From assembly GCA_020027215.1 (NCBI GenBank), contig JAHRAO010000007.1:1-34869 (forward strand): a stretch of 34,869 nt of DNA, given 5' to 3'. A program made the translations under genes and the position numbers. Under the pieces are notes generated by a model that was not told the origin of the DNA, searched no databases, and was given only the letters and a program-made list of their open reading frames with translations. This DNA comes from Gammaproteobacteria bacterium. GTDB taxonomy: Bacteria; Pseudomonadota; Gammaproteobacteria; JABABF01; JAHRAO01. How positions within the stretch are numbered: the first letter of the stretch is position 1; each line of letters opens with the position of its first letter. Shown piece after piece: positions 1,624 through 32,480 of the stretch.

Positions 1624-2255
1624 CTTACGCTTTTTGTCGCGAGCATTCTTGCTAAAGCCGCTCGCGCTTGCGTTATCCCGATCTTATGATGGGCAGAAAA
1701 TAATTGCAGTAGGTCGGCGCCTTGCCACTGCACGCTCATATTTTTGAGCGCGTGCAGTGCTTTATTCTTGGATAATTTATCAGCTTTATTGAGTAGCCCA
1801 TAGACGGGAACTTGAGTCGCTTGTGCCCATTCCAGCATCAATTTATCCCATTCACGGAGCGATTGACGTATGTCCATAATGAGTATTACCCCGACAAGTG
1901 ATTGCCGCTTTCTAAAATATAAATCCAGTTCATGGCGCCATTTGTGTTGTATAGCAGACGACACGCGCGCATAACCGTATCCAGGCAAATCAACTAAACG
2001 ATATTGTGCGGCCGCATCTAAGGCAAAGAAATTAATTTCGCGCGTGCGCCCGGGCTGCTTTGCAACGCGTGCCAATTGATTGGCGCCGGTTAATGTATTG
2101 CATACGCTAGATTTTCCAACATTGGAATACCCAGAAAGGGCAACTTCTTTCCCCACATCTGCAGGGCATTGTTTGAAATGGGGAACCCCGCACATGAAAT
2201 GGACATGTGGTATTCGCGGCGGATCCCCGACCCACAAATTATCAATGAGCGTCAT
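1611..2255 (-). CDS. engB: Ribosome-biogenesis GTPase EngB (YihA/YsxC)
   Basis: EngB is an essential TRAFAC-class GTPase that helps mature the large ribosomal subunit. The P-loop GYSNVGKSS (about residues 42-50), the T(R) segment PGRTREINFF, the G3 motif DLPGYGYA, the family stretch KRQSLVGVILIMDIR and the G4 motif NKADKL are all present. The usual G1 is GRSNAGKSS and the usual G5 region is FSSLKKIG; here they read GYSNVGKSS and FSAHHKIG, which is mild divergence. I place the start at the ATG at 2255 (214 residues), preceded by GGTGA at eight bases. It overlaps the polA end by 14 bases. A GTG at 2270 would add five residues but has no well-spaced ribosome-binding site. The overlap suggests translational coupling to polA. 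Confidence 0.95.
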   Translation of the reverse strand: MTLIDNLWVGDPPRIPHVHFMCGVPHFKQCPADVGKEVALSGYSNVGKSSVCNTLTGANQLARVAKQPGRTREINFFALDAAAQYRLVDLPGYGYARVSSAIQHKWRHELDLYFRKRQSLVGVILIMDIRQSLREWDKLMLEWAQATQVPVYGLLNKADKLSKNKALHALKNMSVQWQGADLLQLFSAHHKIGITQARAALARMLATKSVRTLS

Positions 2256-4962
2256 CCCAGTTGTCACCACTCCCGATATCTACAACCAGCGGCACCCGTA
2301 AATCTGCAGCATCCACCATCTCCTGGCGTACAATATCTGTGACTTCATTTTGTGCGCAATTGGCGCATTCCACCACCAACTCGTCATGCACTTGCATAAT
2401 GATGCACGCATTAAGTTGATTTTCCCGTAATTGCCGATCAATGGCAATCATTGCCCGCTTGATAATATCGGCAGAACTGCCCTGCATCGGTGCGTTAATT
2501 GCTGCACGTTCTGCACCCGCCCGCAACGAATGTTTCGCACTCTTAATATTGGGGAGGTAGAGGCGGCGGTGAAAAATGGTCTCAACATATCCATGCGCGC
2601 GTACTTGTTGGCGTTTTTCTTCCATGAAAGTGTGCACACCTGCGTAGCGGTGGAAGTAAAAATCCATATATTCCTGTGCATCTTTGACATCAACGTTTAT
2701 CTGGCGCGCTAATCCAAAAGCAGACATTCCATAAATTAAGCCAAAATTAATTGCTTTTGCCGCGCGGCGTTGATCCGCTGTAACATTGCTCACCGGACAG
2801 GAGAATATCTCTCCGGCAATGGTGCTGTGTATGTCGTCGCCAGCACAAAAAGCGTGACAAAGCCCTTCATCCTGTGACAAGTGTGCCATAATACGCAATT
2901 CAATCTGTGAGTAGTCAGCATCAATGAAAATAAAACCCTCTTCTGCACAAAAAGCGCGGCGAATTTTCCGCCCCTCTTCAGTGCGGATAGGGATATTTTG
3001 TAAATTGGGATCACTGGATGAGAGGCGTCCCGTCGATGCACCCGCTTGGTGATACGAAGTATGGATCTTCCCTGTGTGCGGGCTGACTTGTTTGGGCAAA
3101 GGATCGGCGTATGTATTTTTCAATTTGTTGAGCATGCGGTGTTGGAGAACGAGTTTCGGCAGGGGATGATGTAAGGAGAGTTGCTGTAGCACCGCTTCAT
3201 TGACTGATCGCTGTTTGGTCGGTGTTTTGCGTCCAGAATGAAGTTGGAATTTGTCAAACAAGATGGCTTGTAACTGTTTGGGAGAATTGATGTTGAACTT
3301 TTCCTCCGAAATATCCCAAATGTGGTTTTCAATTTCTGATAGAGAGTCGCCGAGTTGCCGGCTTAAGGTATTGAGCATGGACACATCAATTTTGCAGCCT
3401 GCCCGCTCAATACGCGATAGCACCGGTATAAGGGGGAGGTCTATCGTGCGGTAAACTTCCTCTAAAGAGGGTATTTTGACAATGTGCGGTGCAAGGAGTG
3501 TGCTCAGTTGTAAAGCCGCATTTGCATTCGCAGCCATATAAGGCGCTGCACGGGCAAGCGGCACCTCACTCCAATTGTGCGTTTTACCTAATACCGTAGA
3601 TAAATTATCATGACTGCGCTGTAGATGACGAAAAGCAAGCGACGGCAGATCATGTCGCCCGCTTCCGGGATCTAAAATAAATGATGCCAACAGGGGGTCA
3701 TCCACAATGCCTCGTAAGTGGATACCGTAGTTTGCCAATATATTGCACGCAAATTTCAAGTTGTGTCCCACTAATTTGGGCTGCTCTGCCTCTAATATCG
3801 GTTTAAGAGTGGCGAGGACACCTTCTTTTGATAATTGGGGCGTCTCCTCGCGATGTCCGAAAGGAATATAAGCTGCCGAACCCGACACGGCAAGGGAAAG
3901 CCCGATGAGGTCGGCGTCCATATAATGCTGTGAAGTCGTTGCCGTCTCTATAGCATAATATTCTGCTTGCACCATGCATTGCACCCACCGCTGTAAATCG
4001 TTTTCAGTGACGATTAATTCATAATCAGAAGATATGGTCGTATGGCGCGCCTTTTCGGGCGCGTCGGCGGCACCTGTGGCGGGCGTGTGATGCGCTTGAT
4101 CCAGCACACGCTGTTGTATCTGTGCTAAAGAGCGGAATTCTAACTCTTGGTATAAGCGTAATAACTGAGCATCGTCTGGCGGTGTGTGTTGTAGACGATC
4201 TGTGTAAGTACTCATATTGACGTCTGTTTTGAGGGTGACTAATTTTTGCGCTAAATAAGCAGTTTCGCGCGCACGCTTTAATCCGTCAGCGATTTTTTTG
4301 GCGCCGCGTATTTTTAATTGCACAAGGCTATCTAATTGGGCATATAAATTATCTAAGTGCCCAAAATGTGCGAGAAGAATACCAGCAGTTTTATGCCCGA
4401 TACCGGGGACGCCGGGAATATTGTCACTACTGTCTCCAACAAGCGATAAATAATCAATCACCTGATCGGGATGCACACCGTATTTTTGCACGACACCCTC
4501 TTCGTCAATTGTTTTGTGCTTGTGCGCATCGTATAAATGAATCTTGTCGGTCACTAATTGCGCTAAATCTTTATCGTTGGAGACAATTAAAACATCTTCT
4601 CCTTTTGAGGCGCTCTCGCGTGCCAAAGTGGCGATGACATCGTCGGCTTCTACCCCCGGTAGCACAACGGAAGGGAACCCCATAGCTGTAATGATCTTTT
4701 GGAGTGGCTCAATTTGTTCTCTTAATTCGGCGGGCATTTTTTTGCGGTTTGCTTTGTATTCAGGGAACCATGCATCACGAAATGTTTTGCCTGGTGCGTC
4801 AAAGACGACAATGTGAGTGCGCTGGGAAAAATCTTTGCGCAGTTTGAGGAGTATATTGAGTGTGCCTTTAATGGCATTAGTCTGTTGTCCTTGAGCGGTA
4901 GTCATTGGAGGCAGGGCGTAAAAAGAACGGTATAAAAATGCAGAGCCATCAATTAAAAGCAT
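2242..4962 (-). CDS. polA: DNA polymerase I with an inactivated proofreading domain
   Basis: Pol I fills gaps and removes RNA primers during lagging-strand synthesis and repair. Numbered from the ATG at 4962 it has 906 residues. The 5' nuclease domain (1 to about 290) is intact: LLIDGSAFLYR, FDAPGKTFRD, GVEADDVIATLA, SNDKDLAQLV, GDSSDNIPGVPGIGHKTA. The polymerase domain is intact: SYHQAGASTGRLSSSDPNLQ, motif A DADYSQIELR, O-helix RRAAKAINFGLIYG, motif C QVHDELVVE. The middle 3'-5' exonuclease fold is recognisable, but the four metal ligands of the E. coli enzyme are all changed: D355 to E339, E357 to A341, D424 to A405 and D501 to N479. Proofreading should therefore be absent, as in Taq polymerase. 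A TTG at 5004 would add 14 residues not found in the family and lacks a ribosome-binding site. Confidence 0.97.
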   Translation of the reverse strand: MLLIDGSAFLYRSFYALPPMTTAQGQQTNAIKGTLNILLKLRKDFSQRTHIVVFDAPGKTFRDAWFPEYKANRKKMPAELREQIEPLQKIITAMGFPSVVLPGVEADDVIATLARESASKGEDVLIVSNDKDLAQLVTDKIHLYDAHKHKTIDEEGVVQKYGVHPDQVIDYLSLVGDSSDNIPGVPGIGHKTAGILLAHFGHLDNLYAQLDSLVQLKIRGAKKIADGLKRARETAYLAQKLVTLKTDVNMSTYTDRLQHTPPDDAQLLRLYQELEFRSLAQIQQRVLDQAHHTPATGAADAPEKARHTTISSDYELIVTENDLQRWVQCMVQAEYYAIETATTSQHYMDADLIGLSLAVSGSAAYIPFGHREETPQLSKEGVLATLKPILEAEQPKLVGHNLKFACNILANYGIHLRGIVDDPLLASFILDPGSGRHDLPSLAFRHLQRSHDNLSTVLGKTHNWSEVPLARAAPYMAANANAALQLSTLLAPHIVKIPSLEEVYRTIDLPLIPVLSRIERAGCKIDVSMLNTLSRQLGDSLSEIENHIWDISEEKFNINSPKQLQAILFDKFQLHSGRKTPTKQRSVNEAVLQQLSLHHPLPKLVLQHRMLNKLKNTYADPLPKQVSPHTGKIHTSYHQAGASTGRLSSSDPNLQNIPIRTEEGRKIRRAFCAEEGFIFIDADYSQIELRIMAHLSQDEGLCHAFCAGDDIHSTIAGEIFSCPVSNVTADQRRAAKAINFGLIYGMSAFGLARQINVDVKDAQEYMDFYFHRYAGVHTFMEEKRQQVRAHGYVETIFHRRLYLPNIKSAKHSLRAGAERAAINAPMQGSSADIIKRAMIAIDRQLRENQLNACIIMQVHDELVVECANCAQNEVTDIVRQEMVDAADLRVPLVVDIGSGDNWDDAH

Positions 4963-5053
4963 AAGCCCTATTATCCAAGTATTACCCCCAATAAGCAAGC
5001 CCAATTTATTGGAGGCTTTTCATATCCATCGTGAAATTGATTCAACAGTTTAT

Positions 5054-5148
5054 AAAAAAATGCATATTTCTCGTTTTTTGTGTAAAATATGCAAAAAAGT
5101 GTAAAAAAATGCACTTTTTTGTAATATTTTCACAAAAAAATGTACTTT
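5054..5148 (+). repeat. Three A-tract direct repeats upstream of the small secreted-protein gene
   Basis: Three copies of a run of seven A followed by TGYAY and a T-rich tail begin at 5054, 5103 and 5134: AAAAAAATGCATATTT, AAAAAAATGCACTTTT and AAAAAAATGTACTTT. They sit between the divergent polA and the small exported-protein gene, just upstream of a strong promoter. They could be UP-element-like A-tracts or binding sites for a regulator or nucleoid protein. The stretch also holds one exact DnaA-box match on the minus strand (TTTTACACA, 5079-5087), so a replication role is possible too. Confidence 0.55.
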
Positions 5149-5153
5149 AGGGG

Positions 5154-5181
5154 TTGACTTTTTGTAAAAACAACATATAAT
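5154..5181 (+). promoter_or_regulatory. Sigma70-type promoter for the small secreted protein
   Basis: A -35 TTGACT (5154-5159) and a perfect -10 TATAAT (5176-5181) are separated by 16 bases, with A/T-rich repeats just upstream. Transcription should start near 5188, giving a leader of about 47 bases before the ATG at 5235. It is among the strongest-looking promoters in the window. Confidence 0.75.
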
Positions 5182-5234
5182 AAGTGTAAATATTACTTAT
5201 TAACCATTTTTTAAAGTATTGAGAGGATATAAAA

Positions 5235-5531
5235 ATGAAAGTACTAAAAAATGTAACCAAACGCTATGTGTTAATTGTCTTGGCGGGAGTATTTTTCTCC
5301 ACCAGTGTATTAGCGCAAACAGGTGGTAATAACGTTAAATCGGCACCATCTTCTTTAATAAAGACTCCTTCATTGATTCAATCTAAAGGAGATACGATGT
5401 TGTCAAAAGAGGCAGAACAACGCGTAACCGAGCAGTTGGAAAAATCACAAAATAAAGTGATTGATCGGCTGAGCGACCAGGCAAATCAATATGCTATAAA
5501 GCTTTTGCTGCCATACGTCAATACGCTTTAG
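5235..5531 (+). CDS. Small exported protein of unknown function
   Basis: This is a 98-residue protein I do not recognise. The first 27 residues form a Sec signal peptide: basic start (MKVLKNVTKRY), hydrophobic core (VLIVLAGVFF) and an SVLA-QT cleavage site. The mature part is about 71 residues. It begins Thr/Ser/Asn-rich and then holds a likely amphipathic helix from about 57 to 90 (LSKEAEQRVTEQLEKSQNKV and onward) ending in LLLPYVNTL. It has no cysteine, so it is not a lipoprotein or a disulfide protein. A GAGAGGA ribosome-binding site lies at good spacing. Its own promoter and a strong terminator make it a single-gene unit, probably well expressed. A helical periplasmic or envelope protein is plausible; the function is unknown. 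Confidence 0.8.
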   Translation: MKVLKNVTKRYVLIVLAGVFFSTSVLAQTGGNNVKSAPSSLIKTPSLIQSKGDTMLSKEAEQRVTEQLEKSQNKVIDRLSDQANQYAIKLLLPYVNTL

Positions 5532-5551
5532 CGTTCATTCTTTCTCCCACC

Positions 5552-5601
5552 GCCCGTCCCTCTGTCCTCCCCCTGGACAAGAGAGGACGGGCACCCTTTT
5601 T
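5552..5601 (+). terminator. Intrinsic terminator of the small secreted-protein gene
   Basis: GCCCGTCC (5552-5559) pairs with GGACGGGC (5585-5592). The stem continues as CTCT/AGAG and GTCC/GGAC with two single-A bulges and a TCCCCCT loop, giving a 16-bp GC-rich stem. ACCCTTTTT follows. It starts 20 bases after the stop codon and separates the gene from the probable origin. Confidence 0.85.
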
Positions 5602-6107
5602 ATGGGGTTTATATAATACCCACCACTTGATATTTCATTCATCGCTTGTCGGCTGCTTGTCTTCATTGAGCGTTTGGGCGACAGGGTTTCTGAACGCGCT
5701 GCGGCATTGTCATGCGCGCCTAATAGAGAAAAGTTTATACTGCGCCTCGTTGGCGAATAAAATGTGCTCTGCACAATTGTGCACAAAAAAATAACGCCAC
5801 CGCTCGCCACATTTCCACAAGGCGATCAGCAGAAAATGAGTCATTCATCCACGCAAAATGTAATTCCATTTAGCCCATATTATGAATAAAAAGCGGTGCA
5901 TAAAAGAAGCTATTAAATCATCAAGTTATAGACATAATCCATATAATTATATATATTTTTTGCTCGGGCTCGCTCCCAGCGGTCCGGGAACTATCCACAG
6001 GTTGTTCACAGAATATAACCTATTTATACAACATTTTTATCTGCCGCTAAAAAACCTCCATTTCAATTTTTTTATCTAACCCATTGATTGTATTGTATTT
6101 TAATTTG
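5602..6107. other. Probable replication origin (oriC) upstream of dnaA
   Basis: This gene-free stretch directly precedes dnaA-dnaN-recF-gyrB, the classical bacterial origin setting. It contains DnaA-box-like nonamers that each miss the TTWTNCACA consensus at one position: TTGTGCACA (5777-5785), ATTTCCACA (5811-5819), CTATCCACA (5991-5999) and TTGTTCACA (6003-6011). The last two are three bases apart. AT-rich blocks at about 5880-5960 and 6012-6107 could unwind. Short open frames here have no family match, ribosome-binding site or conservation that I can see. A cumulative GC-skew minimum at this point would settle the call; I could not compute it. Confidence 0.55.
5770..5786. repeat. 14-bp perfect palindrome within the probable oriC
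   Basis: TGCACAATTGTGCA (5770-5783) is a perfect palindrome. It overlaps a second, 10-bp palindrome TTGTGCACAA (5777-5786) that contains a near-match DnaA box on both strands. It may bind DnaA or a dimeric regulator. It does not resemble the parS consensus. Confidence 0.6.
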
Positions 6108-6136
6108 TTGCATTTGAAATAAAAAGCGCATATGAT
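6108..6136 (+). promoter_or_regulatory. dnaA promoter
   Basis: A -35 TTGCAT (6108-6113) and -10 TATGAT (6131-6136) are separated by exactly 17 bases. The predicted start near 6143 leaves a leader of about 33 bases before the GTG of dnaA. The DnaA-box-like pair at 5991-6011 is about 100 bases upstream, where autoregulation could act. Confidence 0.7.
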
Positions 6137-6175
6137 AGACATACTCTTTTTATTAACAGTTATCAGGGGAGAAGG

Positions 6176-7579
6176 GTGCAGCACGCAATTTGGCAGCAGG
6201 CCATTGATCACATAGCGGTGGATATGTCACCGCAATTATTTAATACGTGGATCCTGCCTTTGAGTGTTATGGAGGAAAGCGATCATAATCATGTGCGCCT
6301 CCTCGCTCCTAATTATTTTGTGCGCGATTGGGTGATGAAAAACTATCGCGAACAGCTAACGAGCTTGATGCGTACACTTTCTGGAGTGGAGAATTTTTGG
6401 ATGGCAATAGATGTGTTGGGACAGCCTAGCGAACAGATGTCTTTACCCCATCCACACAGATCGGATGATGGTGATTCGCCGACCCGCCATTCTTCCGCCG
6501 ATACTCATAAAACACCGCATAATGCCGACCCGCTCGATAATATCACGGCGATTTTCCGTAAAAGCATCACTCACAAATATACTTTTGATTCATTTATCGC
6601 TGGCAAACCGAATGAATTGGCATTTGCTGCCGCCCAGCAAGTGGGCAAAAAATGGGGGAGCACAGAAATGAACCCATTATTGATCTACGGCAGTACTTCT
6701 TTGGGAAAAACACACTTACTCAACGCTGTGGGAAATGAATTATTGCGCCACCACCCCCGCCTGAAAGTCATTTATACCTCATCGGAACGATTCGTGCGGG
6801 ATATGGTACATGCACTTGAATTAAAAACAATCAACGATTTTAAGTATTTTTATCGCTCGCTGGACGTCTTATTGATTGACGACATCCATTTTCTTGCGCG
6901 GGCAAAACAAACGCAAGAAGAGTTTCTCCATTTATTCAATGCTTTAATGGATGCCGATAAACAAGTTGTACTCACCTGCGATAGGCACCCCAAAGATGTT
7001 CAGGGGTTGGATGGACGCTTAAAATCTCGCTTTAATTGGGGATTATCGGCAATGATTGAACCACCGGATGAAGAAAATCGTATCGCTATTTTGCAACATA
7101 AGGCGACGACATGGGAGTTTGATCTCCCTCTCTCGGTGGCGCAGTATATTGCCCAACGCATTGATACCAATGTTCGCGATTTAGAGGGGGCTCTCAAGCG
7201 CGTACTGGCGAGCTCACGTATGAAAAACCGTCCGGTGGATATGGATATGGCACACGAATCTTTATCGGCGTTAGTTGCCGTTCAGCATCAACAAATTAAT
7301 ATAGATCACATTATTCAAATTGTTGCCGATTATTATCGCATTCAGCCCAGCGACATGAAATCGGCAAAGCGCTCCCGTTCGGTTGCTTACCCGCGCCATA
7401 TGGCTATGGCGTTAGCACAATGTTTAACCGACCACAGCTTGCCAGAAATTGGGCGTTTTTTTGGCGGACGCGATCATACGACGGTTTTGCATGCTTGTCG
7501 CAAAGTGAGACGCCTCTATTCTTCTCATGTTGCCACACATCGGGAGTACAAAAACCTCTTAAATAAAATCCGCTCGTGA
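6176..7579 (+). CDS. dnaA: Chromosomal replication initiator DnaA
   Basis: DnaA binds oriC boxes and, with ATP, melts the origin. It has 467 residues, the usual size. Domain I is at 1 to about 80 (IWQQAIDHI, FNTWILPL). A low-complexity His/Asp/Ser-rich linker follows at 85-120. The AAA+ domain starts near 130 with YTFDSFIAGKPNELA, Walker A GSTSLGKT (172-179), Walker B VLLIDD (231-236), the arginine-finger segment RLKSRF (281-286) and sensor II NVRDLEGALKR. Domain IV carries the DNA-binding signature SLPEIGRFFGGRDHTTVLHA. The start is GTG: it directly follows AGGGGAGAAGG, and the family N-terminus begins there. The glycine-rich loop is usually GGTGLGKT, so STS is a small departure. It is first in a dnaA-dnaN-recF-gyrB run. 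Confidence 0.97.
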   Translation: MQHAIWQQAIDHIAVDMSPQLFNTWILPLSVMEESDHNHVRLLAPNYFVRDWVMKNYREQLTSLMRTLSGVENFWMAIDVLGQPSEQMSLPHPHRSDDGDSPTRHSSADTHKTPHNADPLDNITAIFRKSITHKYTFDSFIAGKPNELAFAAAQQVGKKWGSTEMNPLLIYGSTSLGKTHLLNAVGNELLRHHPRLKVIYTSSERFVRDMVHALELKTINDFKYFYRSLDVLLIDDIHFLARAKQTQEEFLHLFNALMDADKQVVLTCDRHPKDVQGLDGRLKSRFNWGLSAMIEPPDEENRIAILQHKATTWEFDLPLSVAQYIAQRIDTNVRDLEGALKRVLASSRMKNRPVDMDMAHESLSALVAVQHQQINIDHIIQIVADYYRIQPSDMKSAKRSRSVAYPRHMAMALAQCLTDHSLPEIGRFFGGRDHTTVLHACRKVRRLYSSHVATHREYKNLLNKIRS

Positions 7580-15255: not shown

Positions 15256-17565
15256 ATGAATACAACGCAAAAGAACTGGATACTCGGCTGCATAGCGCTG
15301 ATTTTTTTACTTGTGCCGCTTGCGCATGCCAAAGTTTTTACACAAAGCACAAAAGATCCCCGCGTTGAAAAACGGATTGAGCAATTATTATCCAAAATGA
15401 CTTTAGCCGAGAAAATTGGACAGATGACTTTGCGCGATTGGGGCATTTATGATAGCCACGATAAAATTGCGGCGATCAAAGAATATGTGCGTCAAGGCAC
15501 AGTAGGTGGTTTTTTGAATATTCCGCGCAACGCACTTGCTCCCGATGCATTTGATGAACTACAAAAAATTGCCGTTGAGAAAAGTCCCCAAGGCATCCCG
15601 CTTATTTTTGGGCACGATGTCATCCACGGTTATAAGACAATTTTCCCCATCCCCTTAGGACAGGCGGCGGCTTGGAATGCAAAAATAGTGGAACGAGGCG
15701 CCCGTGTTGCGGCGTTAGAAGCAACCAGTGTCGGCATCCGTTGGACTTTCGCCCCTATGGTGGATATATCGCGAGACGCGCGCTGGGGGCGCATTGCCGA
15801 ATCATTGGGTGAAGATGTTTATTTGGCATCCGAACTCGCCCGAGCAATGGTCAAAGGTTTTCACGGCATAGATTTGTCGTACCCTACTAGTTTAGCGGCA
15901 TGTGCAAAACATTTTGCAGCTTACGGTGCCGCAGAAGGAGGACGAGACTACAACACGGTGAATATGTCCGAGCGCCGTTTGCGTGATGTTTATTTGCCCC
16001 CATTCAAAGCGGCTATTGAAGCGGGTGCGCCATCGCTGATGACCGCATATAACGAATTGAATGGTATCCCCGCGACAGCCCATCGCCAATTGTTAACCGA
16101 TATTTTGCGTAAAGAATGGGGATTTAGTGGTTTCGTGGTCAGCGATTGGAACTCGGTGATGGAAATGATCCCCCACGGTCACGCATCTGATGCTGCCCAC
16201 GCCGCACGCTTAGCTGTCCGTGCGGGAACTGATTTTGAGATGGCGAGCGATGCCTATGAAAAATATTTACCGCGCTTAGTCAAGCGCAAACGGGTTCGTA
16301 TGCATAGTCTTGACCAAGCCGTGCGGCGAATGTTGCGCGTTAAATTCGCTATGGGGCTATTTAAGAGCCCATACGCTGACCGTCGACGCCGGAGCGACAT
16401 ATTAAATGACAGATTTCTTGCCGATGCCAAGCGGGCGGCAGTGAAAAGCTTTGTCCTTTTGCAGAATAACAAGAATGTGCTTCCCCTTTCAGCACATAAA
16501 AGCGTTGCGGTGATAGGTCCCTTAGCGGAAGTGCCTTATCAACAAATGGGGACTTGGGTTTATGAAGGGAACAAAAAAGATTCGCGCACTTTTTTACCGG
16601 CCTTAAAAGCACATGTGAAAAATCCGCGCACAATACATTACGCACAGGGTTTACCATATAGCCGCAGTTATGATGAGCGTGGATTTGCTGCTGCCCGCGC
16701 GGCTGCGCGGAAGTCGGATGTCGTGTTGTTTTTTGGTGGAGAAGAAGCAATCTTAAGTGGCGAAGGGCATAGCAGAGGAAATATTAGCTTGCCCGGTGCG
16801 CAGAAAAAACTCCTGACGCAATTAGCGGCACTCAAAAAACCGATTGTCTTGGTTATTTTGGCGGGACGTCCGATTAGTTTGGAAGGGCTGACCGACAAAG
16901 TGGATGCTATTATGATGGCGTGGCATCCGGGCACTATGGGTGGGCCGGCATTGGTGGATGTCCTCTATGGTCAATCAGCACCTTCGGGGCGTTTGCCCGT
17001 GACCTGGCCTCAATCCAGCGGACAAATTCCTATTTATTATGACCACAAAGCGACTGGCCGCCCGCCTACCGATGAAAATTATACTCGGATGCATAAAATT
17101 GATCCTAAAACAGAATGGCAACACGCCCCAGGCAATTCTTCCAACCTTTTGGACTATGGCCATCGCCCGTTATATCCTTTTGGCTATGGCATCAGTTACA
17201 CGACATTCCGCTATGAGCAAGTGAAAATGAGGCGCCCAAAAATAAAAATGGGCGGCGATATTCATGTGTCGTTACGAGTGAAAAACACTGGCACAGTAGC
17301 AGCCACCGAAACGGTACAGCTTTATATTCGCGACCGTTTTGCCAGTGTAACTCGCCCAGTTAAACAACTGAAAAGATTTCGTCAAGTACACCTGAATCCG
17401 GGTCAAAAACGCATCGTGCAATTCAAGCTGTCCACTGCCGATCTCGCTTTCCACGATCAATCGATGCGCCTGACTACCGAACCAGGTAATTTTGATTTGT
17501 GGGTTGCGCAACACGCTGCCGACGAACGTCATCACTTTACTTTTACCGTGGCAGGACGACAATAA
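15256..17565 (+). CDS. bglX: Periplasmic beta-glucosidase, GH3 (BglX type)
   Basis: This glycoside hydrolase family 3 enzyme releases glucose from the non-reducing end of beta-gluco-oligosaccharides. It has 769 residues (E. coli BglX has 765) and follows BglX from end to end. A signal peptide (1-25) ends AHA. The GH3 barrel has LSKMTLAEKIGQM, GHDVIHGYKTIFPIPL, KHFAAYGAAEGGRDYNTV and the nucleophile Asp297 in GFVVSDWNS. The C-terminal GH3 domain has KSFVLLQNNKNVLPL and GGEEAILSGEGHSRGNISLP, and the fibronectin-like end has PVKQLKRF. AAAGGCGGAG precedes the ATG. The DUF899 gene follows by nine bases. Confidence 0.95.
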   Translation: MNTTQKNWILGCIALIFLLVPLAHAKVFTQSTKDPRVEKRIEQLLSKMTLAEKIGQMTLRDWGIYDSHDKIAAIKEYVRQGTVGGFLNIPRNALAPDAFDELQKIAVEKSPQGIPLIFGHDVIHGYKTIFPIPLGQAAAWNAKIVERGARVAALEATSVGIRWTFAPMVDISRDARWGRIAESLGEDVYLASELARAMVKGFHGIDLSYPTSLAACAKHFAAYGAAEGGRDYNTVNMSERRLRDVYLPPFKAAIEAGAPSLMTAYNELNGIPATAHRQLLTDILRKEWGFSGFVVSDWNSVMEMIPHGHASDAAHAARLAVRAGTDFEMASDAYEKYLPRLVKRKRVRMHSLDQAVRRMLRVKFAMGLFKSPYADRRRRSDILNDRFLADAKRAAVKSFVLLQNNKNVLPLSAHKSVAVIGPLAEVPYQQMGTWVYEGNKKDSRTFLPALKAHVKNPRTIHYAQGLPYSRSYDERGFAAARAAARKSDVVLFFGGEEAILSGEGHSRGNISLPGAQKKLLTQLAALKKPIVLVILAGRPISLEGLTDKVDAIMMAWHPGTMGGPALVDVLYGQSAPSGRLPVTWPQSSGQIPIYYDHKATGRPPTDENYTRMHKIDPKTEWQHAPGNSSNLLDYGHRPLYPFGYGISYTTFRYEQVKMRRPKIKMGGDIHVSLRVKNTGTVAATETVQLYIRDRFASVTRPVKQLKRFRQVHLNPGQKRIVQFKLSTADLAFHDQSMRLTTEPGNFDLWVAQHAADERHHFTFTVAGRQ

Positions 17566-19982: not shown

Positions 19983-20075
19983 ATTCTTTATCATGCCATA
20001 AAGATTATTTGTTACTACAAAAAATTTGTAATGCCATTTGATGAATACCAATTAATTTATTTGAGAGAGAAAGCT

Positions 20076-22598
20076 ATGTTGAAACATTTGTATATATATG
20101 TTGTTATTGCAGTGATGGTGATGATGGGCGGAAATACATTGGCGCAGTCATTAGGCGTTGTTGGGAATGTCACTCTCTGGCCAGAAAATGTGCATCGTTA
20201 TGTCGAGGTAGATGAAGAGCGCGTCACGCGCATTGTGGAGACCTTGACTGTAGAGGAAAAAGTGGCGCAATTGATTATGGGCGAAATCGGCTTTCTCAAG
20301 CCCGAAGACCTCACTCGCTATCGTTTAGGTGGCATACTCAACGGCGGCGGTACTTTCCCCAACGGCAATAAACATTCTAAAGCAAAGGATTGGATGGCGG
20401 CGAGCGAAGATTATCACCAAGGCTCTATCGCAGGTACACTCACCAACGGAGGCGCACCGGTTCCAGTCATTTGGGGAACAGATGCGGTGCACGGACACTC
20501 TAATTTACACGGCGCGACCATTTTCCCCCATAATATCGGTTTGGGGGCAACTCGCAATGAAGAATTGCTCAAACACATAGGTTCTATTACTGGGGCGCAG
20601 GTTGCCGCCACCGGCATTTTCTGGAATTTTGCACCCACAATTGCTGTACCCACAAATTATAGCTGGGGGCGCACTTATGAAGGATTGAGTTCAGACCCGC
20701 AATTGGTTGGTCGATTGGGAGCCGCCTATATTGAAGGCATACAAGGTGATGGATGGTCGTCTGGTCGTCTAGCTGGTAATAAGGTTTTGGCGACGGCAAA
20801 ACATTTTTTAGGAGATGGTGGCACCTATTTAGGGATTGATCAAGGCGATACCCGCGCCGATGAAGAAACGATGCGCCGCGTGCATGGTCACAGCTATATC
20901 GGGGCATTGGAAGCGGGAGCGCAAACAGTGATGGCTTCTTATAATAGTTGGAATGGCGAAAAAATGCACCAACAACATTACTTTTTAACGACTGTGTTGA
21001 AAGAGCGAATGGGCTTTGATGGCTTTGTGGTTGGTGATTGGAATGGACATGGACAAGTGGCCGGCTGTACGCGAGGAAGTTGTGCCTTGGCAATCAACGC
21101 GGGAGTGGATATGATTATGGTCCCCGAAGATTGGCGTGCACTATACAAAAATACTGTGCAACAAGCGCACAGCGGAGAAATTTCGACCGAGCGCCTCAAT
21201 GACGCAGTGCGGCGTATTATTCGCGTCAAATTGCGGGCAGGATTATTTGATGGTCAACGTCCGCGCAATCGCAAAGATGCTGGCAATCAGCAAGCGGCAA
21301 ATAAAGCGTATTACGTAAGAATTGCCCGCCAAGCGGTGCGCGAATCGCTGGTGCTGCTGAAAAACAATAATAATGTGCTTCCCTTGAAAGCAAATAAAAA
21401 AATATTGGTGGTGGGATCGGCGGCGAAAGATTTGGACTATCAATTTGGCGGTTGGACTCTCGGTTGGCAAGGTTTAGGGAATAAAAACAGTGATTTCCCC
21501 CAAGCGCAATCTTTACTGGACGGCATAAAACAGCGTGTCCGGCGCGGCGGCGGTACAGTAGAATTTTCCCGTTGGGGTACGTATAAAACGAAGCCCGATG
21601 TTGCTGTGGTTGCCTTTGGCGAAAAACCTTACGCGGAATTTTTTGGCGACCGCGATAACCTTCTTGTCGATCATGGCAGAGGGGCGCATTTGGGAGTGAT
21701 GGGGCGTTTAAGCCAATCGGGAATCCCTATAGTGGCAGTCTTTTTCACCGGCCGCCCATTATGGGTCAATAATGAAATTAATGTAGCGGATTCGTTTGTG
21801 ACCGCTTGGTTACCGGGAACGGCATCAGGAGCGGCGGCGGATGTTCTCTTTTGCGCTTCGCCCGCACAATGTGACTTTAAGGGCACGCTTCCCTTTGCAT
21901 GGCCAAATGTGCCGCAAAATGTTCTGATACAAGGCGATAATGTTGCTTTTCCGCAAGGATATGGTCTCACGTATAGCGACCAACATACCCAGAAACCACT
22001 CCCCACCTACTACAATAACAATGCGCTTGATTTTAGTCAGGTGTTGCTGGAAACAGTAGCCCTAGGTTCATACCGCATTCAACTTCGTTCAGACGCCGAA
22101 CAGGCGTTTTTGAAAGGAAAGCAACTGACAATCGGTGATGGTGCTGTTGCGGTGAGTGTGGGTCATGCTCAATCGGGTTCAAAAAATATGCATCAACTCA
22201 AATTCGGCGGTAAAACATCTGCTGCGTGGCTATTGCTTGCCGATGCAGAAAAAAATTGGGCGCCTATGGAACGCAAAGATGGTTATTTGGTTGTGGAGGC
22301 AAAAGCGACCGCACTTTCAGATGAACACCCTTTGTATGTTGCCTTATTATGTGCATACAAAAAATGCCATGCATCAATTGACATTAGCCCATATGTAACC
22401 GACAAACTCAAACAATGGCATCAAGTGGGCATTCCGCTTTCTTGTTTTGAAAAAAGAGGAGTGGATCTGCGCACCGTCAAAGGCGCTGCCTTATGGACGC
22501 AAGGCGAGTGGGAATTAGATTTAGGACATGTCAAGGTGACTAAAAAATTTCATAACACCGATGGATGGAAAATTGATCGTTTAGCCTGTGACGAGTAA
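20076..22598 (+). CDS. Exported GH3 exo-beta-glucan hydrolase (ExoP type)
   Basis: ExoP-type GH3 enzymes cut glucose from beta-1,3/1,4-glucans. From the ATG at 20076 there are 840 residues; GAGAGAG stands at proper spacing before it, and the signal peptide (1-23, ending TLAQ) begins there rather than at an upstream in-frame codon. The barrel shows VPVIWGTDAVHGHSNLHGAT, FAPTIAVPTNYSWGRTYEG, KHFLGDGGTYLGIDQG and the nucleophile Asp321 in GFVVGDWNGHGQV. The second domain has LVLLKNNNNVLPL and FGEKPYAEFFGD, with the candidate acid/base Glu. After about residue 650 comes the beta-sandwich domain typical of ExoP. It differs in subfamily from the other GH3 gene, so the pair is not a recent duplication. 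Confidence 0.94.
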   Translation: MLKHLYIYVVIAVMVMMGGNTLAQSLGVVGNVTLWPENVHRYVEVDEERVTRIVETLTVEEKVAQLIMGEIGFLKPEDLTRYRLGGILNGGGTFPNGNKHSKAKDWMAASEDYHQGSIAGTLTNGGAPVPVIWGTDAVHGHSNLHGATIFPHNIGLGATRNEELLKHIGSITGAQVAATGIFWNFAPTIAVPTNYSWGRTYEGLSSDPQLVGRLGAAYIEGIQGDGWSSGRLAGNKVLATAKHFLGDGGTYLGIDQGDTRADEETMRRVHGHSYIGALEAGAQTVMASYNSWNGEKMHQQHYFLTTVLKERMGFDGFVVGDWNGHGQVAGCTRGSCALAINAGVDMIMVPEDWRALYKNTVQQAHSGEISTERLNDAVRRIIRVKLRAGLFDGQRPRNRKDAGNQQAANKAYYVRIARQAVRESLVLLKNNNNVLPLKANKKILVVGSAAKDLDYQFGGWTLGWQGLGNKNSDFPQAQSLLDGIKQRVRRGGGTVEFSRWGTYKTKPDVAVVAFGEKPYAEFFGDRDNLLVDHGRGAHLGVMGRLSQSGIPIVAVFFTGRPLWVNNEINVADSFVTAWLPGTASGAAADVLFCASPAQCDFKGTLPFAWPNVPQNVLIQGDNVAFPQGYGLTYSDQHTQKPLPTYYNNNALDFSQVLLETVALGSYRIQLRSDAEQAFLKGKQLTIGDGAVAVSVGHAQSGSKNMHQLKFGGKTSAAWLLLADAEKNWAPMERKDGYLVVEAKATALSDEHPLYVALLCAYKKCHASIDISPYVTDKLKQWHQVGIPLSCFEKRGVDLRTVKGAALWTQGEWELDLGHVKVTKKFHNTDGWKIDRLACDE

Positions 22599-26982: not shown

Positions 26983-29900
26983 TTATTGTGATAATCCCGA
27001 ACGCTGGAAAATGGTGTTTTTAGTGCAATGGATAACGGGGATTTCGGTGCTTGTGCCAAAATCCCATATGCGATTGTTAACATCAACTTCGTTGTTATCA
27101 ATAACGCCATTGCCGTCGGTGTCACAATAAATAGCCGCATTGCGCTCTAACTCTCCATTTTCTGTGTTAAGGTTGAAGTCAAATCCTGCATTCCAGTTAC
27201 TATGAGTCGCTGTGCTACCCTCTCCGCCTTGCAATGCCGTGATTTCTGCCAAGGTGAGGGCGGTCGCTTGAGGGGTGCTAATACCTCTACCTGCGCCATG
27301 GGTAAGGCTACTGTTCGCTATCGCCACATAGTAATTGCGCCCGCTCACCGTAGTCTGCGGTGAACTAGTGCCGACTAAGGCACCGTAATGGCTATTGCTG
27401 GTTCCGCTTGACGATAATAGCGCCTGCGCCCAAACATTATGTATGGTGCCATAGTCTATTCCACCGAACAATCCGCCATAATAGTTATTGTTTTTTCCGC
27501 GGCTGCAAACCTCGCCAACCACCCAGCTATTGTATAACCTCCCGTCATCTTTAGGTAAGATAATCCTGTCATCCTCACTGACCCTCCCGATTAATCCACC
27601 GTAATAATTGTTATTGTCGCCTTGGCTGCACACCCTCCCTTTCATCCAGCTGTTAAGAACGACACCGTTGTATACTATACCGGCTAACCCACCGTAATAA
27701 TTGTTATTGTCGCCTCGGCTATACACTTCCCCTTGCATCCAGCTGTTTTGTAATATGCTTGGAGTATCGTATTGTCTACTCCATTTATTTCCTAGCAGCG
27801 CTCCCACCAATCCGCCAATAAAGTTAGAATTGTTCAAACTGGTCTGCACTTGCGTAGAATGACCAGTCAAAACAGTTGCGCTCACTGAAATATTGCTCAT
27901 GAACACATTATACGCTTCACCGACCATTCCGCCTATGCTGTGATGGTGGCCAGCCACAGTCAGGGTACTGGACGAAAAGGTTAAGCGACTATTGTCAAGT
28001 ATACCGACTAATCCACCGACCTCTCCTATACCCTGCACTTCAACGGTGGCGCTTGATGAATCTCCAATTAATGTGATACCGCTTATATCGCTTCTATATG
28101 CAATACCGACAAGAACCCCAACTGGGTTGTTTCCTCTAACCCGCGGATGAATGAATGTTAAATCTCGCATAGTGCTATTCAGCGCCCGCCCAAAGAAAGC
28201 AGCTAATGTATTTTGATTAGAAATGTATAAACCACTGATAGCAAAACCATTACCGATAAAAGTTGATCTAAAATACTCCCTGCCGGTTTGCGCAATTGGT
28301 GTCCATTCACCGCTCATCGCAATATCTGCGGTGAGCTCAAACCCACGGCATACGCCGTTCGGACAACCGATACCGGCAAATGTCTTTGTTGTGCCCTTTT
28401 GTAAGAGTAACAATTGATGGGCAAAACCAATATCCACTAATCCATCGAGATCTTCATCTACAGGCAATAATTGTTGTTGGGCAGTGGGGTCACCTAAACA
28501 ATGAATTGTCGGCGTGAACTGATCGGTGCCAAAATTCCAGATGCGATTGTTAGTATCAACTTCGTTGTTATCAATAACGCCATTGCCGTTGAGATCGCAA
28601 TATTGGCTGAGTAATAAAGCCGCTGCGTTGCCGAACCCAGCGTGCCAATTCGTATGTGTTTTTATATTACCGTTTGCACCGCTTAATGCAGCTATTTGCA
28701 TTAAAGTGCGACTAGTCGCCTCCGCGGTACTGATACCTGTGCCCGCCGCATTAGCTGCCCCAGCAAGGTAATAATTGCGCCCTTGCACCAACCCACCGAC
28801 TTGATTACCGATGAACCCACCGTAATTGATATTTCCGCTGCCTGCGGATAATATGTGCCCCCCTGCCCAGACATTGCGTAGAGTCCCCTCGTGCATTGAT
28901 CCGATAAATCCACCGTAATTGGTATTATTATTGCCTCTACTATGCACTTGTACACTTGCCCAACTATTATAAATTGCACCATTATTGACGCGCCCGATGA
29001 ACCCACCATAATGATTGTGTTGATTGCCTAATCCGCTGACTTCTCCCCCCACCCAGCTATTACGTATTGTGCCGCCGTGCAGGGTGCCTGCTATACCGCC
29101 GACATTGTCTGCTCCGTTTGTGGTTGTACTTTCAATACGCACAGATGTATGTATTTGTGCTGCATTGAGAATGCTATTTTCTGTCATCAAACCGACCAAC
29201 CCGCCAATATGATCAGCACTATCGTCGCCCCCACCGTGCACCGTAACGGTTGCCGAAATAAAATTGGCGCGTGATGCGACTAATCGCCCACTTATCCCGC
29301 CAATGTATGCCCCATGTGCGGACACATTTGACGCGGTTGAACTTATTTGACCGGCGATGGTGATATGGGTGAGCGTACTAGAGCGCACCTCTCCAGCCAG
29401 CGCACCTATGTAATTGTGCCCGATAATTTTGGGATTCGCCAAAATAAGGTTGCTAATGGTGGCAGTAGATATAGCGGCAAACAAACCGACATAATCGCTA
29501 CTTGTCGTTCCAGCAGTTAAATTGGCGATGGTAAAATCATTGCCATGAAAGTTGGCATGAAATGGCATGTTCTTTGAGCCGATAGGCGTCCATGCGCCAC
29601 TTAAAGTAATATCGGCGGCGAGTTCAAAACCACGACACCCATTGCGCTCACAATCATGCACCGTTGGTGATTTTACATTGTCAAATAATCCGTCATCTAT
29701 GCCATCGCCATTGAGATCGTCACGCAAGAGCACTAATTCTGATGATGAATTAATTTCAATTAAACCATCGCTATCTGAATCAACAAGCGGAAGTGTTATT
29801 CGTTGTAAAGCGAGATTTCCCGTGCAACGAATAGCAGGGGTGTGGCGTCTATGGCTAAAATCCCATACCCGGTTGGTGCCAATATTTTCTTGTGTATCAA

Positions 29901-32472
29901 TGATGCCATTGGCATTATTGTCGCAATATTGGCTGATGAGCGCGCCATTAAATCCTGCATGCCAACGGGTGTGTGTCGGTGTGCTCCCTTCACCACCTTG
30001 TAACATAGCGATTTGTGCTAGAGTTATGCCAGTGATTTCGTGTGATTCAATGCCATGCCCTATACTATTCGTTTCGACGTTATTGGTGCTGTAATAATTG
30101 CGCCCAGAGATGACGCCGTTAAAATTTATCGCAATGAAAACACCGTGATTATCGCCCTTAATAGAAAGTTGGCGTGCCGTCCAGTTATTGTGTATTGTTC
30201 CGGCGGTGAGTAAACCGATTAACCCTGCGGCAAAGTTATTGTTATTGCCCGAACTGTTAATGATACCTGCGGTCCAATTATTGTAAACTGCTCCACTGGC
30301 GACTTGTCCTGCTACCCCTCCGCTGAAATTATTATTGTTTCCATTATGTGATAAGAAGTTGTGCGCCCAATTATTGCGTAGCACGCCACTTTCCATAAAT
30401 CCGACCATCCCGCCGTAGTAAAAATTGTTATTGCCCCAGCTCAACAGGCTACCGCCGACCCAGCTATTTTGGATTATCCCGCCCGCAACGTTGCCGATTA
30501 AGCCACCGACATAATCAGGGGAATTGCTTGCTCCCATTATCCCCGTCACAATAGTACCGTCAATTGCCACATGGCTGATTGTGCTATTTGACCATCCTGC
30601 TAAACCGCCAACGTAGTCATCGCTATCTTCGCTGCCGCCACGCACGGTGAGTGTGCTGGTGATAAAAGAAACATGCGATTTACTGATCTTGCCAGCTAAT
30701 CCACCAACATAGCCGCCATGCCCGCGCACTTCAAAGGTTGCAGTGGAATGATCTCCTATGAGTGTGATGCGGGTCACGGTGCTTCCGTGCATATCGCCGG
30801 TGAGTACACCGCTGTAATGACGACCGACGACACGCGGGTGGGCGAAAATCACATTATCAATCGTGGCAGAAGATATGGATCCAAACAAGCCGACATAATC
30901 TGTGGTAGACGTATTGATATTCATGTGCCGAATAGTAAAACCATTGCCGTTGAATACGCTGCGAAAGGGCCGACTGTGCGTGCCGATAGGCGTCCATGCG
31001 CCGCTTAAAGTAATATCGGCGGTGAGTTCCAAGCCACGACACCCATTGCGCACACAATCATGCGCCGCTAATGCTTCTGCATTGTCAAATAATCTGCTAT
31101 ATATGCCATCACCGTTGAAATCGTCACGCAAGAGTACCAATTCTGACGATGAGCTAATTTCAATTAAACCATCGCCATCTAAATCAGGAAAGATTGGTAT
31201 TCGTTGTAAAGCCGTGTTCCCCGTGCAACGAATAGCTGGGGTGTGGTGGGCAGTGCCGAAATCCCATATACGATTATTATCAGTGCGTTCAGAAACATCA
31301 ATGATGCCGTTGGTATTGCTATCACAATATTGACTCATCAGTAATGCTTGCCCACTGCCAAAACCGGCGTCCCAATTGGTGTGAGTGATAGAGCTACTAT
31401 TATAGCCACCGCTGAGCCGCGCAATTTGTTGCAGATTAAGACGAGTGGCGTATCTGTTAAAGGTCAGTTCACTGAGACCATCACTTATCGCATCGTAATA
31501 ATTTCGCCCGCGATTCGTCCCTATAAAACGACCGATAAAGTTGTTGTTAAAGCCGTCATTTCTGAAAAAATATGGTTGCATGAATCCTACGGCCCATGTA
31601 TTGTGTACTGTTGCATAAGAATCTGATTCGCCCAATAATCCGCCGTATCTGCTGTTATTGTTGTCTGGCGTACTTCTTAAGGTGACTCCGGCCCAACTAT
31701 TCTGCACTGCCATCTCCGCGATATACCCTATTAAACCACCGTATTGGCTATTGTTGGTTCCGCTACTTGATACGTGACCGATTGCCCAAGAGTTTGCTAT
31801 AAAACTCCCGTCTATTGCCGACCCTATTAAACCGCCATAAAATGAATTGTTCTGGCCTTCGCTATTTATGCGTGTGTGTGCCCAGCTGTTGATCAGGCGG
31901 GAATTGAAAGCCGATCCCGCTAAACCGCCGTAATTTTGATTATAGTTGCCGCTACTCGTTATTGTGCTCGTAGTGAAATTGTTTTGTGCAACGGAGTCGC
32001 GGGCCTCTCCAATAAATCCACCATAACGTTGGTTCAAATTTCCGTTACTATATACCGTGCTACTGGATACGCTGAGTTGTATAATCGCGTTTCTGCTGAC
32101 AATGCCCGCTAATCCACCGTAGGCAGTATTGCTACTCCCTTGGCTGTATACCGTGCTTGTTAGCCAATTATTGCTATATGTGCCACCCGCAACGAACCCG
32201 ACTAATCCGCCATAAAGAGTATTGTGATTTCGTTTGCTGCTCACAATACTGGTGACAGTACTCCTTTCCAACCGCCCTCCAAACACACTACCGGCTAATC
32301 CACCGTAGGCAGTATTGCCGTTGCCTTCAGCGGATACAGAACTGCTGACCGAACTATTTAATATATTGACATCAACCGCCGTGCCGGTTAATCCGCCATA
32401 ATAATCGTTATTGTGACCTATGCTGGTTAGAGAGAAATGCCCCACGCTCTGTTCAATAGAGCCGAACGTCAT
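26983..32472 (-). CDS. Giant GLUG-repeat surface-type protein, C-terminal part (after frameshift)
   Basis: This 1829-residue frame is the continuation of the protein coded at 32481-34869 and is probably not an independent gene: its first ATG is inside a repeat, with no ribosome-binding site. It first holds nine turns of a 31-residue repeat with YGGL-G and N-N before it (GLUG-like, probably a beta-solenoid). Three further beads follow. Each opens with a Ca-type acidic loop (DLDGDGLIEI, DSDSDGLIEI, DEDLDGLVDI), a Cys pair (CVRNGCRG, CERNGCRG, CPNGVCRG), ELTADITLSGAWTPIG and FNGNGFTI, then solenoid turns. Beads close with GRNYY, a Trp-AGF segment, a loop like YCDNNANGIID and a Cys in AIRCTGN. 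The C-terminus (KNTIFQRSGLSQ) shows no LPXTG, autotransporter barrel or transmembrane anchor. It is presumably extracellular; adhesion or ligand binding is a guess. Confidence 0.8.
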   Translation of the reverse strand: MTFGSIEQSVGHFSLTSIGHNNDYYGGLTGTAVDVNILNSSVSSSVSAEGNGNTAYGGLAGSVFGGRLERSTVTSIVSSKRNHNTLYGGLVGFVAGGTYSNNWLTSTVYSQGSSNTAYGGLAGIVSRNAIIQLSVSSSTVYSNGNLNQRYGGFIGEARDSVAQNNFTTSTITSSGNYNQNYGGLAGSAFNSRLINSWAHTRINSEGQNNSFYGGLIGSAIDGSFIANSWAIGHVSSSGTNNSQYGGLIGYIAEMAVQNSWAGVTLRSTPDNNNSRYGGLLGESDSYATVHNTWAVGFMQPYFFRNDGFNNNFIGRFIGTNRGRNYYDAISDGLSELTFNRYATRLNLQQIARLSGGYNSSSITHTNWDAGFGSGQALLMSQYCDSNTNGIIDVSERTDNNRIWDFGTAHHTPAIRCTGNTALQRIPIFPDLDGDGLIEISSSSELVLLRDDFNGDGIYSRLFDNAEALAAHDCVRNGCRGLELTADITLSGAWTPIGTHSRPFRSVFNGNGFTIRHMNINTSTTDYVGLFGSISSATIDNVIFAHPRVVGRHYSGVLTGDMHGSTVTRITLIGDHSTATFEVRGHGGYVGGLAGKISKSHVSFITSTLTVRGGSEDSDDYVGGLAGWSNSTISHVAIDGTIVTGIMGASNSPDYVGGLIGNVAGGIIQNSWVGGSLLSWGNNNFYYGGMVGFMESGVLRNNWAHNFLSHNGNNNNFSGGVAGQVASGAVYNNWTAGIINSSGNNNNFAAGLIGLLTAGTIHNNWTARQLSIKGDNHGVFIAINFNGVISGRNYYSTNNVETNSIGHGIESHEITGITLAQIAMLQGGEGSTPTHTRWHAGFNGALISQYCDNNANGIIDTQENIGTNRVWDFSHRRHTPAIRCTGNLALQRITLPLVDSDSDGLIEINSSSELVLLRDDLNGDGIDDGLFDNVKSPTVHDCERNGCRGFELAADITLSGAWTPIGSKNMPFHANFHGNDFTIANLTAGTTSSDYVGLFAAISTATISNLILANPKIIGHNYIGALAGEVRSSTLTHITIAGQISSTASNVSAHGAYIGGISGRLVASRANFISATVTVHGGGDDSADHIGGLVGLMTENSILNAAQIHTSVRIESTTTNGADNVGGIAGTLHGGTIRNSWVGGEVSGLGNQHNHYGGFIGRVNNGAIYNSWASVQVHSRGNNNTNYGGFIGSMHEGTLRNVWAGGHILSAGSGNINYGGFIGNQVGGLVQGRNYYLAGAANAAGTGISTAEATSRTLMQIAALSGANGNIKTHTNWHAGFGNAAALLLSQYCDLNGNGVIDNNEVDTNNRIWNFGTDQFTPTIHCLGDPTAQQQLLPVDEDLDGLVDIGFAHQLLLLQKGTTKTFAGIGCPNGVCRGFELTADIAMSGEWTPIAQTGREYFRSTFIGNGFAISGLYISNQNTLAAFFGRALNSTMRDLTFIHPRVRGNNPVGVLVGIAYRSDISGITLIGDSSSATVEVQGIGEVGGLVGILDNSRLTFSSSTLTVAGHHHSIGGMVGEAYNVFMSNISVSATVLTGHSTQVQTSLNNSNFIGGLVGALLGNKWSRQYDTPSILQNSWMQGEVYSRGDNNNYYGGLAGIVYNGVVLNSWMKGRVCSQGDNNNYYGGLIGRVSEDDRIILPKDDGRLYNSWVVGEVCSRGKNNNYYGGLFGGIDYGTIHNVWAQALLSSSGTSNSHYGALVGTSSPQTTVSGRNYYVAIANSSLTHGAGRGISTPQATALTLAEITALQGGEGSTATHSNWNAGFDFNLNTENGELERNAAIYCDTDGNGVIDNNEVDVNNRIWDFGTSTEIPVIHCTKNTIFQRSGLSQ

Positions 32473-32480
32473 AGTGCCGA

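Follow-up and report, generated by a model that had tools for sequence, protein, structure and literature searches.

A DNA polymerase I with a substituted proofreading site in a small-genome gammaproteobacterium

Does the only DNA polymerase I (Pol I) of this gammaproteobacterium still proofread? The window, by which we mean the whole stretch of 34,869 nucleotides that was analysed, carries on its reverse strand a polA gene (2242..4962) encoding a protein of 906 amino acids. The open frame spans 2242-5004 with a TTG at its upstream end; residues are numbered here from the ATG at 4962 (MLLIDGSAF). The protein scores 1084.8 bits against NCBIfam NF004397 (cut-off 720) and 931.3 bits against TIGR00593 (cut-off 600), and its Pfam domains follow the order 5' nuclease, 3'-5' exonuclease-like and polymerase. 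Both PF02739 and PF01367 are present in the 5' nuclease part, which rules out PolA2/APEX, the actinobacterial form with an inactive exonuclease and without a 5' nuclease domain. No second Pol I copy accompanies it in the host genome (1.53 Mb in 46 contigs). The closest solved relative is the E. coli enzyme, and the top phmmer match was 1d8y, an exonuclease-deficient (exo-) mutant of the Klenow fragment.

The gene lies in a region with several features of its own. polA and dnaA are divergent (window 4962-6176), and dnaN, recF and gyrB follow dnaA. The 1.2 kb gap between polA and dnaA is AT-rich beside polA, with repeated AAAAAAATGCA-like units at 5054-5148 and an imperfect inverted repeat of 28 nt at 5074-5139, and is possibly a replication origin or a regulatory region. 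It also holds a short open frame on the forward strand (5235-5531), starting MKVLKNVTKRYVLIVLAGVFFSTSVLAQ, that resembles a small secreted protein. Further along the forward strand, two family 3 glycoside hydrolases are encoded at 15256-17565 and 20031-22598, in what is a small genome; they flank genes for a DUF899 protein and a class-III aminotransferase. On the reverse strand, positions 26983-34850 encode a pair of very large proteins. One has 1829 aa and almost no family match, and its neighbor carries cadherin-like and Big_9 (tandem-95) repeats. Both are probably surface or adhesion proteins, which is large for a genome of 1.5 Mb.

The 3'-5' exonuclease domain of the DEDDy, RNase H-like type covers residues 313-500 (3463..4026, reverse strand) and was delimited by PF01612 (E=8e-12) and by alignment to Klenow. 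The columns of the metal ligands were fixed by HMMER against the Klenow fragment and by two MAFFT alignments, one including about 50 relatives and the other about 160. All placements agreed. On the reverse strand, E339 (GAG, 3946..3948) stands in place of D355, A341 (GCA, 3940..3942) in place of E357, A405 (GCG, 3748..3750) in place of D424 and N479 (AAT, 3526..3528) in place of D501. Thus, the residues D, E, D, D of a proofreading-proficient DEDDy site read E, A, A, N here, while the tyrosine of motif III is kept as Y475 (TAT, 3538..3540), which MAFFT placed opposite Y497. The initial annotation had named exactly these four residues, and the codons bear it out. It had also described the alignment as free of gaps, which holds locally around the ligands but not across the domain, where HMMER places three short gaps of 1, 2 and 3 residues away from them.

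The rest of the enzyme is intact, as had been proposed. Counting as strongly conserved those positions that are at least 95% conserved among intact relatives, the 5' nuclease domain (4130..4962, reverse strand) retains 50 of 54 and the polymerase domain (2245..3462, reverse strand) 121 of 131; both boundaries are approximate. A substituted DEDDy motif next to an intact polymerase and 5' nuclease is the composition expected of an exonuclease-inactive Pol I. The exonuclease domain has 39 positions with a conservation of at least 90%, of which it retains 24. Several of the lost ones (D355, E357, L361, Y423, D424, E500 and D501) sit at or beside the catalytic site. When the four ligands are set aside, identity of the domain to intact relatives is as predicted from the polymerase domain (residual z -0.9), whereas in most of the heavily substituted members of the class that lost ligands the domain has decayed (z -4 to -7). 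Its length of 189 aa is close to the 191-210 aa of intact relatives, compared to 157-167 aa in three heavily substituted proteins with a decayed domain. This near-normal length and divergence suggest that the loss is fairly recent, or that the shape of the domain is held for another reason. An AlphaFold model of the Klenow part, built with four sequences, gave pLDDT values of mostly 34-63 in the exonuclease part and hence cannot show that the fold persists. Judged by its residue content, the exonuclease domain appears to be without activity. The intact frame and the intact polymerase and 5' nuclease domains support the view, put forward in the initial annotation, that the predicted loss is selective for proofreading.

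To place this case we surveyed the class through 153 Pol I proteins, sampled at close to one per family. All four ligands are kept in 139 of them, in line with the earlier statement that most gammaproteobacterial copies retain the site, and each ligand is conserved in at least 90% (D355 in 141, E357 in 145, D424 in 143, D501 in 139). The remaining 14 genomes have lost one ligand or more (the host, G000, together with G004, G007, G016, G023, G041, G047, G096, G097, G105, G113, G130, G165 and G172), and D501 is among the lost ligands in every one. A polymerase-domain tree requires 13 changes, or no fewer than 4 when only its supported branches are counted. The proofreading site was therefore lost repeatedly in the class, about 13 separate times on the tree. 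The one same-order genome in the set, G001, has the full D, E, D, Y, D series in the MAFFT alignment, which puts the loss on the host lineage. The initial annotation had raised the possibility of a lineage-wide loss; this is answered in part, at the level of the order, the compared set containing no genome of the host's genus or family. Recent loss is seen in close pairs, G041 against its same-family relative G181 and G172 against its same-genus relative G027, and these pairs offer a setting for measuring fidelity effects. A different change was seen in L184 (genome G109, 1.4 Mb), whose Pol I has the four metal ligands and a cysteine in place of the motif tyrosine Y497. Genomes of 2.4 Mb or less make up 13 of the 14 that lost ligands and 51 of the 139 that kept them (Fisher p=5e-5, uncorrected for phylogeny and with sizes blurred by incomplete genomes). 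On supported branches this trend comes down to 4 independent pairs, too few for testing.

We then considered the other polymerases of the host. DnaQ, which had been suggested for comparison, is present and intact; it scores above the TIGR01406 cut-off and has the residues D, E, D, H, D. Proofreading of the replicase is therefore expected to continue. The replicative C-family polymerase gene dnaE was not found in the host genome by two Pfam models or with a near-full-length relative as query, despite the presence of dnaQ, dnaN and others. Matches to dnaE are missing in 8 of 185 genomes, mostly fragmented assemblies and among them G023, another genome whose Pol I lost ligands, and in G001 a contig end cuts the gene. 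Given also the host's completeness of 97%, the missing dnaE is likely a gap in the assembly. A contig end at the usual neighbor of dnaE could have accounted for the absence, but in the host rnhB adjoins uvrB inside a contig. Neither a Y-family nor a B-family polymerase gave a match in the host genome (97% complete) or in G001. With respect to the tested families, Y and B, Pol I may therefore be the sole non-replicative polymerase, and the host has the Helicobacter-type make-up of a genome with neither Y- nor B-family enzyme.

This raises an adaptive reading, in which Pol I gave up proofreading to act as a translesion polymerase that extends mismatches and bypasses lesions. There is precedent in Helicobacter pylori, where a Pol I without proofreading carries out mutagenic bypass in an organism that has no translesion polymerases (PMC3121766). 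Across the class, Y-family polymerases are absent from 9 of the 14 genomes with lost ligands compared to 35 of 139 with the full set (p=0.004). However, the association weakens when genome size is taken into account, and in the size range up to 2.4 Mb it is not significant (9/13 vs 21/51, p=0.12). Moreover, five genomes with lost ligands have Y-family polymerases, and G001 lacks them and nonetheless keeps its proofreading site. We consider this reading unlikely for the host. Extended to the whole class, the same idea would mean that shrinking genomes repeatedly shed Pol I proofreading and, coupled with it, their translesion polymerases, the dead-exonuclease Pol I taking over bypass. We regard this version as slightly more doubtful still; if it were true, the host lineage would be an advanced example.

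Could E339 and Y475, together with other groups, leave the domain a weak or altered nuclease activity? The exchange of Asp for Glu at E339 is conservative, and the motif tyrosine is retained. Against this, three of the four carboxylates are gone, and only 1 acidic residue lies within 3 columns of the ligands, where every intact sequence has at least 5. The same count means that no shifted alignment, such as a gapped one returning Asp or Glu to these columns, restores the site. Further active-site residues are altered as well (L361Q, Y423F, F486W and E500A, with Q483 gapped), and replacement of D355 and E357 is enough to inactivate the Klenow exonuclease (PMC6457538). Residual activity is thus highly improbable. 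Weaker even than this is an assembly or alignment artefact: the genome is in 46 contigs, but the frame is open over its full length, the alignments concur, the flanking motifs are intact, and four separate missense changes accompanied by further active-site changes are not the pattern of sequencing errors.

We therefore favor, with high confidence, a sole Pol I that does not proofread, although its 5' nuclease and polymerase are active, and that keeps its dead exonuclease domain as a scaffold, the activity having been lost under relaxed constraint. Such an enzyme would mature Okazaki fragments and fill repair gaps through its 5' nuclease and polymerase domains. It may thereby raise the mutation rate in gap filling, as the initial annotation suggested. 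Its exonuclease domain would bind no catalytic metals, making proofreading impossible, and may be retained as a structural, DNA-binding scaffold. The scaffold role is plausible because most Klenow variants without the exonuclease domain are poorly soluble and because this domain also binds single-stranded DNA in Klenow (PMC6457538). The loss dates to after the split from G001, and Pol I proofreading was probably no longer needed in this small-genome lineage, where DnaQ still edits for the replicase. We infer relaxed constraint as the cause. Two observations count against parts of this reading, namely that E339 leaves one carboxylate near the site and, for the link to size, that an all-bacteria survey saw no relation to genome size (PMC12926913).

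That survey, published in 2026 and spanning more than 3000 bacterial species, found that about half of the Pol I orthologs carry DEDDy substitutions, whose distribution mostly follows phylum (Firmicutes, Tenericutes, Actinobacteria) and overall bears no relation to genome size (PMC12926913). Together with the precedent of H. pylori, this makes the window protein an ordinary case of a described phenomenon. What is modestly new is how many times the site was lost inside a single class and that these losses cluster in small genomes, which suggests a within-class trend, D501 being lost each time, that the all-bacteria survey did not report. The host is also a clear example of lineage-specific loss within a class that usually keeps Pol I proofreading, and G001, from the same order, serves as the intact counterpart. 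Like the PolA1 enzymes with a substituted DEDDy motif, for example those of Bacillus, Actinobacteria and Taq, the window protein has three domains with 5' nuclease and polymerase predicted to be active; in those enzymes the substitution is phylum-wide, whereas here it is lineage-specific and recurrent among a large majority of intact relatives (PMC12926913). With H. pylori the host shares a lack of proofreading, predicted in its own case, as well as a small genome and the lack of Y-family polymerases. H. pylori belongs to a different phylum, and its Pol I was measured to lack editing, to extend mismatches and to bypass lesions (PMC3121766), while the window case is read from its sequence. Finally, the laboratory Klenow exo- enzyme (D355A and E357A; PDB 1d8y) is altered at positions also replaced here, and A341 corresponds exactly to E357A. 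Unlike that engineered variant, the window Pol I also replaces D424 and D501 and carries Glu rather than Ala at D355.
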